Assembly: GCF_004134825.1 (NCBI RefSeq)
Contig: NZ_SDPN01000001.1
Location: 62,001 to 126,000 of the forward strand
Reading direction: 5' to 3'
DNA length: 64,000 bases
From: Agromyces albus
Lineage (GTDB): Bacteria > Actinomycetota > Actinomycetes > Actinomycetales > Microbacteriaceae
In this document: positions 38,874 through 45,106 of the stretch, piece by piece
Numbering within the stretch: the stretch's first letter is position 1
Layout: every line of letters starts with the position of its first letter
The notes under the pieces: generated by a model
Told to the model about the DNA's origin: nothing
The model's database searches: none
What the model saw: only the letters and a program-made list of their open reading frames with translations
Position numbers and translations under genes: made by a program

Positions 38874-39302
38874 ATGACGGATGCCGCGAGCAGCACGCCG
38901 AGCGAGTCGGCGCCGAACGCCCTCGACGAAGACGGCCGCAAGCACGGCCACTGGCAGGAGCACTTCGCCGACGGCCGGGTCTCGGCCGAGGGCAGCTACG
39001 AGCACGGCGTGCAGCAGGGCCCCTGGCGGTACTGGTACCGGAACGGCCAGCTGAAGGCAGCCGGCAACCGGCTCGAAGACACGCTCGACGGCCACTGGCG
39101 GTGGTGGCGCGAAGACGGCGGCCCGCTGCAGGAGGGCGCCTTCGTGCGCAACGAGCAGCACGGCGAGTGGCGGCGGTGGCACGCGACCGGCGAATTGCTC
39201 GACGAAGGCGAGTATCACCTGGGCCGCAAGATCGGCATGTGGCGCAGCTACCACCCCGACGGCAGCCTCAAGCAGGAGAGATCGCATCAGCCGCGCCACT
39301 AG
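38874..39302 (+). CDS. MORN-repeat-variant protein
   Basis: A 142-residue protein made of about five repeats of the type G.W..Y..NGQL...G.Y..G...G.W (HGHWQEHFADGRVSAEGSY; QGPWRYWYRNGQLKAAGN; DGHWRWWREDGGPLQEGAF; HGEWRRWHATGELLDEGEY; IGMWRSYHPDGSLKQE). This is the MORN_2 type of repeat also seen in bacterial toxin-immunity and surface proteins. No signal peptide, so probably cytoplasmic. Follows the Lrp gene by two bases. Confidence 0.82.
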   Translation: MTDAASSTPSESAPNALDEDGRKHGHWQEHFADGRVSAEGSYEHGVQQGPWRYWYRNGQLKAAGNRLEDTLDGHWRWWREDGGPLQEGAFVRNEQHGEWRRWHATGELLDEGEYHLGRKIGMWRSYHPDGSLKQERSHQPRH

Positions 39303-39321: not shown

Positions 39322-39690
39322 ATGCTCGAGGTCGATCCGAACAGTGCGGTGGCGCCCTTCGAGCAGATTCGCGTGCAGGTGATCGAAGCCGTGCGCAGCG
39401 GAGACCTCGTGCCCGGCAGCCGGATGCCCACGGTGCGCCGGCTCGCTGAAGAGCTCGGCCTCGCCCCGAACACCGTCGCCCGCGCCTACCGTGAGCTCGA
39501 ACACGACGGCGTCATCGAGACGCGAGGACGGAACGGCTCGTTCGTGTCAGCGACCGGTGACCCGACCCGGCAGCAGGCGCAGCTCGCGGCATCCGCCTAC
39601 GCCGATCACATCGCCCGGCTCGGGGTCGACGCCGACGAGGCGCTCGCGATCGTGCGTTCAGCCCTGGGGCTCCCCGCTCAGCGAGGCTGA
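39322..39690 (+). CDS. GntR-family regulator (short, YtrA-like)
   Basis: A 122-residue protein with a winged helix-turn-helix at about 10-78 (FEQIRVQVIEAVRSGDLVPGSRMPTVRRLAEELGLAPNTVARAYRELEHDGVI) and only a short helical tail, as in the YtrA subgroup. YtrA regulators usually control ABC transporters; none is adjacent here. It starts 19 bases after the MORN gene, so it may share that transcript. Confidence 0.88.
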   Translation: MLEVDPNSAVAPFEQIRVQVIEAVRSGDLVPGSRMPTVRRLAEELGLAPNTVARAYRELEHDGVIETRGRNGSFVSATGDPTRQQAQLAASAYADHIARLGVDADEALAIVRSALGLPAQRG

Positions 39691-39705: not shown

Positions 39706-39740
39706 CTCGGTTCTCGGTTCTCGGTTCTCAGCTCTCGGGA
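39706..39740. repeat. Tandem heptanucleotide repeats (TCTCGGT)
   Basis: Three perfect copies of TCTCGGT (39706-39726) followed by two degenerate ones (TCTCAGC, TCTCGGG). The last two lie inside the 3' end of rimK and encode its final residues. A slippage-prone site between convergent genes. Confidence 0.75.
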
Positions 39741-40918
39741 ATGGGTTGTTTCGGCAGCTTGCGCACCTTCGCGCGCCGGCGTCGCCGCTCGGGGATCATC
39801 GAACGCATCTCCTCGAGCTTGCCGAAGCACAGCAGCCGGTCTTCGGCCTGCAGCTCGACGCTGCGGCGCGGGTTCGGGATGACGCTCGTGCCACGGTGCA
39901 GCGTGAGCACGGTGATGTCGCGCTCCGAGAGCCCCGAGTCGCCGAGGGTCGTGCCCACCAGGTCGGCGCCGCCGTGCACGACGAGCTCGGCCACGCCGTA
40001 ACCCGTCGAGACGGTGAGGCGCTGCCGCACGTCGATCTCGGGGAAGGCGACCTGGTTCGCGATGTGGTCGACGATCGCGCCGGCCACATCGAGCTTCGTC
40101 GCGGTCTCGATGCCTTCGAGGCCTGGGGAGGAGTTCACCTCCATCACGAGCGGGCCCTCGTCGCCCTCGAGCATGTCGACGCCGGCGACCCTGAGTCCCA
40201 TGATCTGGGCCGAGCGCACGGCTGCCTGCTCGAATTCGGGCGTCAGCTCGACGGACTCCACCGTGCCGCCGCGGTGCACGTTCGAGCGGAACTCGTCGCC
40301 GATCGCGCTCCGGCGCATCGCCGCGACCACGCGATCGCCGACGACGAGGGCACGGATGTCGCGGCCGCGGCTCTCCTTGATGAACCGCTGGATGAGCACG
40401 TTCTGCTTCGTCGAGTGCAGGGTCTCGATGATCGCCTCGGCGACCTTGACCTCGGGCGCGAGGATGACGCCGATGCCCTGTGTTCCCTCGAGCAGCTTGA
40501 TGACGACCGGCGCACCGCCCACCCGCTCGATCGCGGGTCGTACATCGGCGCGGTTCCGCACGAAGGCCGTCGCCGGCATGCCGATGTTGTGACGGGACAG
40601 GATCTGGTTGGCGCGCAGCTTGTCACGCGAGTTCGTGATGCCGTTCGCCGTGTTCGGCGTGAAGACGTCCATCTGCTCGAACTGCCGCACCACCGCCGTG
40701 CCGTAGTAGGTGACCGAGTTGCCGATCCTCGGCAGCACCGCGTCGTAGTCGGAGAGCGGCCGCCCGCGGTACTGCAGGTCGGGCTCGGGCCCCGACAGGT
40801 CGATCGCGAAGCGCAGGGTGTCGAGCACTCTCACCTGGTGTCCGCGTTGTTCCGCGGCCGCCCGGAGTCGCTGCGTCGAGTACGCCTGCGGGGCGCGCGA
40901 GAGGATCGCCAGTTTCAT
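39728..40918 (-). CDS. rimK: RimK-type ATP-grasp glutamate ligase with C-terminal TrkA-C domain
   Basis: A 396-residue fusion. The N-terminal part is RimK-like: MKLAILSRAPQAYST, ATP-grasp segments GAPVVIKLLEGTQGIGVILA, IQRFIKESRGRDIRALVVGDRVVAAM, and metal-binding PLVMEVNSSPGLEGIE. RimK adds glutamate to ribosomal protein S6. Residues about 305-370 (YGVAELVVHGGADLVG, LGDSGLSERDITVLTLHRG, EDRLLCFG) form an RCK/TrkA-C ligand-binding domain, absent from E. coli RimK. Divergent from a RimB-like protease with only 27 bases between starts. Confidence 0.9.
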   Translation of the reverse strand: MKLAILSRAPQAYSTQRLRAAAEQRGHQVRVLDTLRFAIDLSGPEPDLQYRGRPLSDYDAVLPRIGNSVTYYGTAVVRQFEQMDVFTPNTANGITNSRDKLRANQILSRHNIGMPATAFVRNRADVRPAIERVGGAPVVIKLLEGTQGIGVILAPEVKVAEAIIETLHSTKQNVLIQRFIKESRGRDIRALVVGDRVVAAMRRSAIGDEFRSNVHRGGTVESVELTPEFEQAAVRSAQIMGLRVAGVDMLEGDEGPLVMEVNSSPGLEGIETATKLDVAGAIVDHIANQVAFPEIDVRQRLTVSTGYGVAELVVHGGADLVGTTLGDSGLSERDITVLTLHRGTSVIPNPRRSVELQAEDRLLCFGKLEEMRSMIPERRRRRAKVRKLPKQPIPES

Positions 40919-40945
40919 CAGTTGTACCCCTGCGAAGATGGTCGG

Positions 40946-41449
40946 GTGAACGAGACTCCCCATTCAAACACCATCGTCGGATGGCGCGAGTGGGTAAGTC
41001 TGCCCGATGCAGGGGTGCCGTGGATCAAAGCCAAGCTCGACACCGGCGCACGAACCTCGTCGTTGCACGCCTTCGACGTGGAGGAGGCGCAGCATGACGG
41101 CACGTCGATGGTGCGATTCGGCATCCACCCATGGCAGGACACCGGCGACGACGCCGTCGTGGTGGAGCTGCCGATCCACGACCGCCGAAAGGTGCGCAGC
41201 TCCTCGGGCCACACTGAGGAGCGCATCGTCGTGCTCATGGAGGTCGTGCTTCGAGGACGCGCCATCACCGCCGAGGTGACACTCACGAACCGTGACGAGA
41301 TGGGCTTCCGCATGCTCATCGGCCGAGAAGCCTTGCGCCGGGGATTCATCGTCGACGCAGCACGCTCGTTCCTCGGCGGACGCGCGCCCCGCCGCATCCG
41401 CCGTCGCAACCGGGGCCGCACGGTGCGCGTGGTCGATCGCTCGAAGTAG
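40946..41449 (+). CDS. RimB-like ATP-dependent zinc protease family protein
   Basis: A 167-residue retropepsin-like protein. The signature IKAKLDTGARTSSLHA (about 29-44) contains the Asp-Thr-Gly of aspartic proteases, and GFRMLIGREALRRGF is the family's second motif. In Pseudomonas the related RimB removes glutamates added by RimK; that pairing is repeated here by divergent genes. GTG start with GAAGATGG upstream. The C-terminus is very basic (RAPRRIRRRNRGRTVR), which could bind RNA. Confidence 0.88.
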   Translation: MNETPHSNTIVGWREWVSLPDAGVPWIKAKLDTGARTSSLHAFDVEEAQHDGTSMVRFGIHPWQDTGDDAVVVELPIHDRRKVRSSSGHTEERIVVLMEVVLRGRAITAEVTLTNRDEMGFRMLIGREALRRGFIVDAARSFLGGRAPRRIRRRNRGRTVRVVDRSK

Positions 41450-41452
41450 CCC

Positions 41453-44400
41453 CTAGATCACGCCCGCCGAGAGCGAACTCGGGTTGCCGAAGCGGTGGTT
41501 CGTGATCGAGACGGCCTGCTCGCGCAGGAACGGCAGCAGCTCCACGCGGCCCGAGGGCGTCACGGCGTGCGACCACACCGCGACATCCGGGCTTCCGCCG
41601 AGCGCTTCGGTGAGTGCCGGGGCGCCGCCGCCGACGAGCCGCACGCGTGTCGTGGTGATGCCGCCCTTCGCGGCGCGCGCGAGCCATCCGGCATCCTTCT
41701 CGCGGACGATGCGCACGTCACGCGCGGCGAGCACGTTGCGCACGCCCTTCGGCAGGTCGATCGCCGTCGACACCGTGAGCGGCGCCTTCGCGAGCACGCC
41801 GGCGGCGATGACGCGGAGCCCCTCGGCGAGGGTCGCCTGCTCGCCGATGCGGATCGTGACGGGCAGCGGGCGGTAGCGGAACAGGTTCCGCTCGACCTCG
41901 ACGCCCGAGACGTCCTTCACGACGCCGTACTCCTCGGCCCACGCGAGCTCGTCGGAGAGGGCAGAGCGGCGCAGCAGGTCGAACTCCTCGTAGCCGAGCG
42001 CCGGCTGCGAGGCCTCGATGATCTCGGTGACGCGCTTCTCGAGTCCGCGCAGGTGCAGCGTGGAGCTCGCGGGGCCGTGCTCGGGCACCCACTCGCCGAG
42101 ACCGAACAGGTAGTTCGGGCCGCCCGCCTTCGCGCCGGCGCCGACCGACGAGCGCTTCCAGCCGCCGAACGGCTGGCGCTGCACGATCGCACCGGTGGTG
42201 CCGCGGTTCACGTAGAGGTTGCCGGCCTCGACGCGATCGAGCCAGGTGGCGAGCTCGGCGGGATCGAGCGAGTGCAGGCCCGCGGTGAGCCCGTAGTCGA
42301 CGGCGTTCTGCATGCGGATCGCCTCGTCGAGGTTCCGAGCGTGCATGACGCCGAGCACCGGGCCGAAGAACTCGGTGAGGTGGAAATAGGAGCCGGCGGC
42401 GACGCCCGAGCGGATGCCGGGAGACCAGAGCTGCCCCGTCTCGTCGAGCTGCCTCGGCTCGACGAGCCAGTCCTCGCCGATGCCGAGCTGCGTGAGCGCG
42501 TGCAGCAGCTTGCCGTTCGCGGGCTCGATGATCGGGCCCATCTGGCTCCGCGGGTCTTCGGGCCAGCCGACCTGCAACGACATGGTCGCGTCGACGAGCT
42601 GCCGGCGGAATCGCTCGGACTTCGCGACCGATCCCACGAGGATCACGAGCGAGGCGGCCGAGCACTTCTGCCCCGCGTGTCCGAAGGCGCTCTTCACGAC
42701 GTCGGCAGCGGCGAGGTCGAGGTCGGCCGACGGCGTCACGATGATCGCGTTCTTGCCGCTCGTCTCGGCGAGGAGCGGGAGGTCTTTCCGGAACGAGCGG
42801 AACAGCTGCGCGGTCTCGTACGCGCCCGTGAGGATGACGCGGTCGACCTCGGGCGCCGAGACGAGTTGCTTGCCGAGGTCGTGGTTGGCGAGGTCGACGA
42901 GGGCGAGGAGGTGGCGCGGCACGCCGGCCTCCCAGAGCGCCTCGACCATGACGGCGCCGGAGCGCTGGGCGAGCTTCGCGGGCTTGATGATGACGCCCGA
43001 ACCTGCGGCGAGCGCGGCGAGCACACCGCCGGCCGGTATGGCGACCGGGAAATTCCACGGCGGCGTCACGACGGTGAGCTTCGGTGGCACGAACGAAGCC
43101 CCCTGCACGTGGTCGAGCTCGCGGGCGCGCTCGGCATAGTAATGCGCGAAGTCGATCGCCTCGCTCACCTCGGGGTCGGCCTCGGCGATGGTCTTGCCCG
43201 TCTCGGCGGCCATCGCCTCGATGAGGCGGTCGCGGTTCGCGGCGAGCGCGATGCCCGCGCGATGCAGCACGGCGGCGCGTTCGGCGCCGGGCAGCCTGCC
43301 CCACGCGGCACCGCGGGCGTGCACGGAACCGATGATGGAGTCGAGGGTCTCGGGGTCGTCGACGCGGGCCGCGGCGACCGTGTCCATGCCGACACGCGAT
43401 CCGGGCACGCGGGCGAGGATGCGGCGTCCCCAGTCGCGGTTCGCGGCGATCGCCGGGTCGGTGTCGGGTTCGTTGCGGAAGCCGGGAGTCGCGCCCGGGC
43501 CCATGGGCGCGCCCGGCGTGCCCGGCGCCGAGGGAGCAGCGGATGCCGCGGCATCCGCCAGCTCGATGCCGTCGATGCCGTCGGAGCCGCGCACGAGGTT
43601 GAGCACGACGCTCGTGAGCGACTCGTCTTCGTGCTCGGTGCCCGGAGCGGGAGCGTCGGGAATCGCCATCGCCGCGGCGAGCGACTCCTCGCTCCACTCG
43701 GTGCGGCGGTTCTGGGTGCGATTCGGCGTGGGCGCGGCCGGGTTCGCGGCATCCGCTTCGAGCGCTTCGACCGAGCGGAGGTAGCGTGCCTGCTCACGCT
43801 CGAAGAGCCGCTCGTCGCCGGCGAGCTCGAACACGGCCGACATGAAGTTGTCGTCGCTCGCGTTCTCTTCGAGGCGGCGGATCAGGTAGGCGATCGCCAC
43901 GTCGAACTCCGCGGGGTTCACGACGGGCGTGTAGAGCAGCAGGTTGCCGACGGTGGCGCGCACCGCTTCCGCCTGGCCGGTCGCCATGCCGAGGAGCATC
44001 TCGAACTCGACGCGATCGTCGACGCCGCGATACTTCGCGGTGAGCCAGGCGTCGGCGACGTCGAAGAGATTGTGGCCGGCGACGCCGAGCTTGACCGCGT
44101 GAGTGCGTTCGGGCGTCATCGACCAGCGGAGCACCCGCTTGTAGTTCGTGTCGGAGTCCTGCTTGGTGCCGTACGTCGCGACGGGCCAGCCGTGGATCGC
44201 GGCGTCGACGTGCTCCATCGCGAGGTTCGCGCCCTTCACGACCCGCACCTTGATCGGTGCGCCGCCGGCGGCGCGGCGGGCCGTCGCCCATGCGGTGAGG
44301 TCCTGCATCGCGCCGAGCGCGTCGGGCAGGTAGGTCTGCAGCACGATGCCCGCTTCGAGGCCGCGCAACTGCGGCTTGTCGAGCAGGGTCTTGAACACCG

Positions 44401-45106
44401 CGATCGTGAGGTCGAGGTCGCGGTACTCCTCCATGTCGAGGTTGATGAACTTGGGCGACGGGCTCTTCGCGGCGAGCTCGTAGAGCGGGGTGAGCTTCTC
44501 GACGACCTTCTCGACGGCTTCGTCGAACGACCACATCGAGAGCTGGCTCACGACGCTCGAGACCTTGATCGACACGTAGTCCACGTCGTCTCGGGCGAGG
44601 AACTCGTAGGTGCCGCGCAAGCGGCGGGCGGCCTCGTCTTCGCCGAGCACGGCCTCGCCGAGGAGGTTGAGGTTCAAGCGGTTGCCGTTCTCGCGCAGCG
44701 AGGCGATCGCGGGGCCGAGCTTCTCGGGCGTCGCGTCGAGCACGAGGTGGCCGACCATGCTGCGCAGCACGCGACGCGCGATCGGGATGACGATCCACGG
44801 GAACGCCGGCGCGACGAATCCGCCGAGCCGGATCGCAGCGCGCAGGTACCAAGGCAGGAACCGCGGCGTGAGCCTCGCGACCTGCTCGAGGTTTCGGCCG
44901 GCCACGCCGACGTCTTCGGGCCGCATGACGCCGTCGACGAATCCGACGGTGAAGTCGAGGCCGCGCGGGTCTTTCAGCACGCCGGCGAGACGCTCGGCGG
45001 CGGGCTCTGCGGGATACTCGGCGCTCTCGGCAAGCCAGCGTCGCACGAGGGCGACGACGTGATCGGTGCTCGGTCGTGCGTCCGTGGCAGCGTTCGACAT
45101 GGTCAC
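41453..45106 (-). CDS. putA: Bifunctional proline dehydrogenase / L-glutamate gamma-semialdehyde dehydrogenase
   Basis: A 1217-residue fusion enzyme that oxidises proline to glutamate. The FAD-dependent proline dehydrogenase covers about 90-440 (YVSIKVSSVVSQLSMW; KVRVVKGANLAMEH). A Pro/Gly/Ala-rich linker follows at about 500-560. The NAD-dependent aldehyde dehydrogenase has Glu in LLAETSGKNAII (about E781) and Cys in HAGQKCSAASL (about C814). The last 200 residues match the C-terminal part seen in long PutA proteins. No N-terminal ribbon-helix-helix, so it does not regulate itself. GTG start has AAAGGA upstream; an ATG lies two codons later. Divergent from a LysR gene. Confidence 0.93.
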   Translation of the reverse strand: MTMSNAATDARPSTDHVVALVRRWLAESAEYPAEPAAERLAGVLKDPRGLDFTVGFVDGVMRPEDVGVAGRNLEQVARLTPRFLPWYLRAAIRLGGFVAPAFPWIVIPIARRVLRSMVGHLVLDATPEKLGPAIASLRENGNRLNLNLLGEAVLGEDEAARRLRGTYEFLARDDVDYVSIKVSSVVSQLSMWSFDEAVEKVVEKLTPLYELAAKSPSPKFINLDMEEYRDLDLTIAVFKTLLDKPQLRGLEAGIVLQTYLPDALGAMQDLTAWATARRAAGGAPIKVRVVKGANLAMEHVDAAIHGWPVATYGTKQDSDTNYKRVLRWSMTPERTHAVKLGVAGHNLFDVADAWLTAKYRGVDDRVEFEMLLGMATGQAEAVRATVGNLLLYTPVVNPAEFDVAIAYLIRRLEENASDDNFMSAVFELAGDERLFEREQARYLRSVEALEADAANPAAPTPNRTQNRRTEWSEESLAAAMAIPDAPAPGTEHEDESLTSVVLNLVRGSDGIDGIELADAAASAAPSAPGTPGAPMGPGATPGFRNEPDTDPAIAANRDWGRRILARVPGSRVGMDTVAAARVDDPETLDSIIGSVHARGAAWGRLPGAERAAVLHRAGIALAANRDRLIEAMAAETGKTIAEADPEVSEAIDFAHYYAERARELDHVQGASFVPPKLTVVTPPWNFPVAIPAGGVLAALAAGSGVIIKPAKLAQRSGAVMVEALWEAGVPRHLLALVDLANHDLGKQLVSAPEVDRVILTGAYETAQLFRSFRKDLPLLAETSGKNAIIVTPSADLDLAAADVVKSAFGHAGQKCSAASLVILVGSVAKSERFRRQLVDATMSLQVGWPEDPRSQMGPIIEPANGKLLHALTQLGIGEDWLVEPRQLDETGQLWSPGIRSGVAAGSYFHLTEFFGPVLGVMHARNLDEAIRMQNAVDYGLTAGLHSLDPAELATWLDRVEAGNLYVNRGTTGAIVQRQPFGGWKRSSVGAGAKAGGPNYLFGLGEWVPEHGPASSTLHLRGLEKRVTEIIEASQPALGYEEFDLLRRSALSDELAWAEEYGVVKDVSGVEVERNLFRYRPLPVTIRIGEQATLAEGLRVIAAGVLAKAPLTVSTAIDLPKGVRNVLAARDVRIVREKDAGWLARAAKGGITTTRVRLVGGGAPALTEALGGSPDVAVWSHAVTPSGRVELLPFLREQAVSITNHRFGNPSSLSAGVI

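Follow-up and report, generated by a model that had tools for sequence, protein, structure and literature searches.

A RimK-family glutamate ligase fused to an RCK_C domain and divergently paired with a RimB-like protease in Agromyces albus and other Actinomycetota

The RimK-RimB locus of Agromyces albus

Here we describe a pair of genes in Agromyces albus in which a ligase of the RimK family, usually regarded as an enzyme that modifies the ribosomal protein S6, carries an additional C-terminal TrkA_C/RCK_C domain and is encoded divergently from a retropepsin-family protease resembling RimB. The pair lies in a stretch of 64,000 nucleotides (NCBI RefSeq assembly GCF_004134825.1, contig NZ_SDPN01000001.1, positions 62,001 to 126,000 of the forward strand), hereinafter the window, in the coordinates of which the features of the locus are given below.

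39728..40918, minus strand: RimK-family alpha-L-glutamate ligase with a C-terminal TrkA_C/RCK_C domain, 396 amino acids plus stop
40637..40918, minus strand: Rimk_N pre-ATP-grasp domain, residues 1-94 (PF18030, 125.8 bits, cut-off 26.4)
40061..40627, minus strand: RimK ATP-grasp domain, residues 98-286 (PF08443, 195.6 bits, cut-off 21)
39800..39994, minus strand: TrkA_C/RCK_C domain, residues 309-373 (PF02080, 35.2 bits, cut-off 27, and fold match)
39731..39799, minus strand: C-terminal tail, residues 374-396 (PERRRRRAKVRKLP...), with a basic stretch (alignment)
40919..40945, no strand: stretch of 27 bases separating the divergent starts, a spacing kept in relatives
40946..41449, plus strand: RimB-like retropepsin-family protease, 167 amino acids plus stop (PF05618, 120.9 bits, cut-off 27)

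A preliminary description of this DNA had proposed both the RimK-TrkA-C fusion and the divergent RimB-like protease with 27 bases between the starts. The fusion is real, given that the Pfam scores of all three domains exceed their cut-offs and that the C-terminal part matches RCK_C folds, and the arrangement is borne out by the coordinates together with the PF05618 match. The RimK frame opens with ATG at 40918 on the minus strand and ends with the stop at 39730-39728; this start was adopted because the beginning of the protein, MKLAILSR, is kept in the aligned relatives. The RimB-like frame runs on the plus strand from GTG at 40946 to the stop at 41447-41449, with its DTGA motif at residues 32-35 and with 9g59, 2pma and 9g58 as relatives in the PDB. 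Upstream starts that would yield longer versions are available for both frames; with the starts used here, the distance between the two genes is exactly 27 bases. Comparison of start spacing was attempted for 130 loci, 21 of which, the window locus among them, could be parsed: in 18 of these, RimB can start in frame at a distance of 24-28 bases from the start of RimK, and in the other three the distance is 46, 47 and 52 bases.

Family, fold and conservation of the fused ligase

The window RimK readily passes the model of the RimK family of alpha-L-glutamate ligases (TIGR00768, score 250.3, cut-off 143.4) and falls just under the cut-off of the equivalog 'S6--L-glutamate ligase' (NF007764, 326.2 against 331). 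Two fused and two unfused proteins were scored in the latter comparison; the second fused protein, from a planctomycete, is likewise below the cut-off (312.0), and the two unfused controls pass it (435.7 and 443.9). Of 12 candidate positions for the ATP, Mg and substrate sites of RimK, 11 are invariant in 28 aligned rows, the invariant residues including K100, K141, R189, R203, D248, E260 and N262. A model of the full-length protein, of moderate confidence (mean predicted local distance difference test score, pLDDT, 67), matches the RimK proteins of Pseudomonas and E. coli; the Pseudomonas structure 7qyr is 55% identical to the window RimK over the aligned part.

When modeled alone (mean pLDDT 77), the C-terminal part aligns with RCK_C domains of known regulators, with fold Z scores of 12.7 for GsuK, 12.1 for KtrA, 11.7 for KtrC, 11.4 for KhtT, 10.8 for the RCK_C domain of S. 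aureus KtrA and 9.9 for BusR, the range over the RCK_C regulators being 9.6 to 12.7; sequence search recovers the same PDB families, albeit weakly (best E 0.0014). A Pfam scan of the fused RimK yielded no match to an RCK_N-type domain. TrkA_C is recognized at E <= 0.001 in all 28 aligned fused proteins, a count that is partly by construction because 27 of them were retrieved through their C-terminal domain. Invariant in the RCK_C region of these rows, which are labeled as belonging to several phyla, are S304, Y307, G308, E311, P348, N349, P350, D360, R361, C364 and G366. Mean pairwise identity peaks in the linker between the ligase and RCK_C (0.89) and amounts to 0.79 in the ATP-grasp domain, 0.67 in RCK_C and 0.45 in the C-terminal tail, where the basic stretch is nevertheless retained.

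Distribution and origin of the fused clade

The full-length fused protein is encoded in 22 of the 24 other genomes of the same genus, and near-full-length matches were found in 39 of the 396 genomes sampled from the order and in 21 of the 396 sampled from the phylum (own genome included; one match contains an internal stop), the phylum sample yielding two partial matches in addition. In both samples, the fused matches are at least 73% identical to the query, and RimKs matching the ligase part only are at most 57% identical. In a scan of genome contigs, the C-terminal domain had at least 569 relatives. The 80 that were kept are mostly from Actinomycetota, others being on contigs labeled Planctomycetota, Spirochaetota, Acidobacteriota and Armatimonadetes; most of the contigs from outside Actinomycetota are metagenome bins, and for the one labeled Acidobacteriota, mis-binning or transfer is possible because it groups beside a contig from Acidimicrobiia.

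In a tree of the ligase part with 44 rows, a single branch with full support separates the 35 fused from the 9 plain RimKs. Among the sequences compared, the fused RimKs form a clade that appears to have arisen once, and the fusion is not a chance one. An origin from mobile elements was considered and rejected, the 104 plasmid and 34 phage records all matching below 60% identity; one plasmid match (H5) extended to residue 335, and the annotated gene of H5 stops at about 302 amino acids.

Partner genes: RimB, AstE/AspA-type hydrolases and ion channels

In the order sample, PF05618 is present in 39 of the 396 genomes, the identical set to those with the fused RimK, and in all 39 the listed coordinates place the two genes adjacent and divergent; these genomes are related, so that the 39 pairs do not amount to 39 independent events. 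Of the 80 named loci, 59 have RimB inside the retrieved flanks, as do 54 of the 60 for which about 2.5 kb is available on both sides; the corresponding counts for a gene of an AstE/AspA-type hydrolase (family of PF24827) are 45 and 39. The gene order varies: in Acidimicrobiia and others, all the genes are on one strand; RimB and AspA are divergent from RimK in the majority of the Nocardioides, Phycicoccus and Agrococcus loci; and in Leifsonia, Curtobacterium, Humibacter, Leucobacter, Microbacterium, Agromyces, one Agrococcus, one Nocardioides and the window, RimB is divergent without AspA. There is no AstE/AspA gene beside the pair in the window, and none was detected elsewhere in the own genome by two weak searches, one with PF04952 (PF24827 was not searched, and E. 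coli was the sole control to match) and one with the protein of a single relative as the query (no positive control). Because the trio of RimK, RimB and AstE/AspA is likewise found in Phaeobacter and Vibrio, where RimK is unfused, it either predates the fusion or is spread as a unit.

The Vibrio trio adjoins a gene for a mechanosensitive channel (MscS) and the Phaeobacter trio is near CorA. MscS-like genes are found in 5 and CorA-like genes in 5 of the 80 named loci, the query loci included; counted without a background rate, these neighbors are only suggestive. Mechanosensitive-channel or CorA-type genes near rimK, whether fused or not, are located at L221 6398-7267, L171 1738-2571, L150 2227-4295 and L219 1946-2908.

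Ribosomal protein S6 as a candidate target

The S6 protein of the own genome ends in -APAQKDA, with no terminal glutamate, unlike that of the E. coli control, which ends in -GDSEE. Across 31 genomes with the fused RimK (the tally leaves out G468, which has no S6 match), the last residue of S6 is Glu in one and Asp in two, that is, acidic in 3 of 31. Terminal Glu was found in 2 of 8 genomes that have only unfused RimK and in 2 of 21 without a RimK match, and the S6 tails of fused-RimK genomes are similar to those of relatives in which no RimK was matched. In five of the fused hosts, S6 stops right after the core (-RPGA, -LLRPGA). The S6 proteins of families f18 and f14 end directly after the core domain (...LLRPGA, ...LIRPDAH), and in a number of genomes from the window's family, S6 has a long tail rich in Ala and Lys.

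The preliminary description took S6 to be the target and pointed to the C-terminus of S6 as the place where this idea could fail. It is precisely there that S6 proves unsuitable: the own S6 ends in -KDA and the last residue is acidic in as few as 3 of the 31 fused genomes, and for this reason S6 is an unlikely target. Excerpts of a study of rim systems are consistent with products other than modified S6, in that RimB is described both as cleaving polyglutamate and as stimulating the synthesis of free poly-alpha-glutamate by RimK, S6 without terminal Glu is noted in some of the hosts, alternative RimK targets are raised, and RimB is found to cut polyglutamate in a non-native protein (PMC11957791).

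Cyclic dinucleotides and the RCK_C domain

It is a reasonable inference that the added domain could provide ligand control inside one chain. RCK_C domains of KtrA, KtrC, CpaA, KhtT and BusR bind cyclic di-AMP (c-di-AMP), according to excerpts of two reports (PMC8517857, PMC10117811), one of which gives the binding signature (I/L)(I/L)X2DX1RX5N(I/L)(I/L) (PMC10117811). This signature is absent from all 57 fused proteins of one set and from all 62 of a second (which comprised 63 frames, of which L078 is an unfused RimK); the test is weak because S. aureus KtrA alone among five control stretches carries the signature and KhtT, although known to bind c-di-AMP, does not. The synthase domain for c-di-AMP, DAC, is present in 22 of the 28 fused genomes searched and in 11 of the 14 controls. 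There is no match in the own genome, which is 99.98% complete, nor in G004, G061, G382, G801 and G808, and c-di-AMP, put forward earlier as a ligand, therefore finds no support here. By family, DAC is missing from the three f1 genomes tested (G000, G004 and G061) and from G382 (f6), and it is present in all five f18 genomes and in the one f14 genome tested.

The own genome contains one weak match to GGDEF (3.6e-10), and 9 of the 28 fused genomes contain none. Cyclic di-GMP (c-di-GMP), also suggested in the preliminary description, is accordingly not supported as a shared ligand and could still act in the own genome. Three genomes, G004, G382 and G808, match neither DAC nor GGDEF, which, barring a further synthase, argues against a single dinucleotide ligand throughout the clade. 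Other possible ligands are NAD, ADP, ions and amino acids.

Relation to known systems

The present pair resembles the RimABK system of Pseudomonas in having a RimK of the same fold (7qyr) and a retropepsin-like partner, and differs from it in the fusion of RCK_C to RimK, in the divergent arrangement as opposed to one operon, and in an S6 without terminal Glu; no EAL-type RimA was found among the three flanking genes (MORN_2, GntR, PutA), to which the scan was confined. The ligase fold is also shared with E. coli RimK (5zct, 4iwx, 5zk6), which the title of 5zct calls a poly-alpha-L-glutamate synthetase; with 306 residues, however, 5zct is too short to include RCK_C, the E. coli S6 ends in EE, and the controls with a PF05618 match do not include E. 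coli. The RimBK hybrid known from D. psychrophila and its relatives is another fusion within a rim system, one for which the authors saw no glutamylation of the tested S6 (PMC11957791); there, RimB is fused to RimK, whereas here RCK_C is fused and RimB is separate. KtrA/KtrC, KhtT, GsuK, MthK and BusR share the fold of the RCK_C domain, but control K+ transport or transcription, whereas here the domain is on a ligase. Finally, the Rlo system of Pseudomonas aeruginosa (RloA/RloB/RloC) combines an ATP-grasp protein with a retropepsin-like partner and, as excerpted, has a role in hypoosmotic stress (PMC12239564); in that system, RloA is a secreted protein and RloB resides in the membrane.

The component domains are already known, and domain databases may list the RimK-RCK_C architecture. 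No description of such a fusion was found among the results inspected from literature searches, so an earlier mention is possible; the word TrkA is absent from PMC11957791 and PMC10092738.

A putative polyglutamate ligase-endopeptidase pair with a built-in regulator

We consider it moderately likely that the fused RimK and the RimB-like protein form a poly-alpha-glutamate ligase/endopeptidase pair that acts on free polymer or on a protein other than S6, with RCK_C as a dimerizing, probably ligand- or ion-sensing regulator. By analogy with the Pseudomonas and E. coli proteins, the ligase would extend a carboxyl end with alpha-linked glutamates at the expense of ATP and the RimB-like retropepsin would cut polyglutamate, so that both together would control a polyglutamate tail or free polymer in its length or amount. 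In this lineage, S6 is probably not the acceptor, free poly-alpha-glutamate or another protein being more likely. The fold of the RCK_C domain suggests that it most likely dimerizes the ligase and makes the catalytic domain responsive to a small ligand or ion.

Several points weigh against this interpretation. The reactions are predicted from characterized relatives, dimerization and regulation by RCK_C are predicted from the fold, and the polymer is a putative product. The requirement for terminal Glu derives from other RimKs, such that a ligase of different specificity could still modify S6. One of the 12 candidate RimK site positions, 178, varies among the 28 rows, and RCK_C is less conserved than the ATP-grasp domain. 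The pair is not universal, given that no RimB was detected at 6 of the 60 well-covered loci (5 from Nitriliruptoraceae and 1 from Acidimicrobiaceae). The best NCBIfam match of the RimB-like protein is indeed RimB (NF052261), with a score (98.6) that is below the equivalog cut-off of 200; the model looks narrow, however, because the protein from the rimK operon of Phaeobacter fails to reach this cut-off as well (109.5).

Among the alternatives, it appears somewhat unlikely that the fused clade glutamylates one specific protein other than S6, with RimB reversing the modification. This would fit the alternative targets and the cleavage of a non-native polyglutamate protein mentioned in excerpts of the rim study (PMC11957791), as well as the scores of the two fused RimKs below the S6-ligase cut-off, but in a non-exhaustive survey of neighborhoods no acceptor candidate recurs nearby, the recurring gene being that of the AstE/AspA-type hydrolase. 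Unlikely, too, in our estimate, is that RCK_C merely mediates oligomerization or docking, to RimB, the ribosome or a substrate, without sensing anything: the basic stretch that follows the domain and the lack of a dinucleotide pathway common to all hosts are compatible with such a role, and the invariance of residues in the RCK_C region across several labeled phyla speaks, if only suggestively, against it.

The explanations that invoke cyclic dinucleotides fare worse. That c-di-AMP was the ancestral ligand of RCK_C, lost along with its synthase in the window's family, strikes us as very unlikely; the prevalence of DAC (22 of 28 fused genomes) and the similar loop of the known binder KhtT (LGELDVRQNYDVTVI against LGDSGLSERDITVL) favor this scenario, but genomes without DAC (own genus, G061, G382) retain the RCK_C domain, and the signature is absent from both sets of fused proteins, in a weak test that KhtT itself fails. 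The model in the preliminary description, namely, that the pair modifies S6 under c-di-AMP or c-di-GMP control supplied by RCK_C, is highly improbable. It has precedent in Pseudomonas RimK, which modifies S6 and the ATPase activity of which is stimulated by c-di-GMP, not c-di-AMP, in the excerpted account (PMC10092738), and it can draw on the c-di-AMP binders KtrA, KtrC, KhtT and BusR among the fold matches and on the weak GGDEF match in the own genome. Against it stand the S6 end -KDA and the acidic S6 end in as few as 3 of 31 fused genomes, the absence of DAC from the searches of the own genome, G004, G061, G382, G801 and G808, and the lack of GGDEF in 9 of 28 fused genomes, with G004, G382 and G808 having neither domain.

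The ligase-endopeptidase reading can be extended, speculatively and to what we consider quite unlikely, to a ribosome-independent rim branch, in which an ion- or metabolite-gated cycle of poly-alpha-glutamate adjusts the pool of fixed anions during osmotic or ionic change. RCK_C would then switch between polymerization by RimK and cleavage by RimB, along with the AstE/AspA-type hydrolase in many hosts. The ortholog group K05844 corresponds to rimK. Glutamate-modification genes including K05844 are commoner in brackish than in marine relatives in the excerpts of a survey (PMC10219603). The notion of an osmotic or ionic cycle derives from indirect indications, namely this survey, the RCK_C fold and the mechanosensitive-channel and CorA-type neighbors in a few loci.

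The significance of the fused RimKs is that they make up a large clade, common in Actinomycetota, which shares the RimK fold and the protease partner, for the most part lacks an S6 that would fit, and has a sensor-type domain built into the ligase chain. This clade would make it possible to test, in culturable soil bacteria, what RimK produces where its target is something other than S6, and what RCK_C does in hosts without a detected c-di-AMP synthase and, in some cases, without a c-di-GMP synthase.

Other genes at the locus and in the genome

Downstream of the RimB-like gene and convergent with it, ending a few bases from its stop, is the gene of PutA (proline dehydrogenase and aldehyde dehydrogenase, 1217 amino acids; 41453-45106, minus strand). 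PutA is also a neighbor in 14 of 50 unnamed loci, the window's included, where the flanks span 1.5 kb only, and in 2 of the 80 named loci (L193 and L195); this adjacency in several loci probably reflects shared descent. On the other side, two plus-strand genes converge on the rimK stop, one encoding a MORN-repeat protein (MORN_2; 38874-39302) and the other a short GntR-type regulator (39322-39690). The same genome encodes a second RimK-type ATP-grasp protein (54.9 bits) on contig 57 (L002 1474-2769, minus strand), which adjoins a gene for a protein of 335 amino acids.
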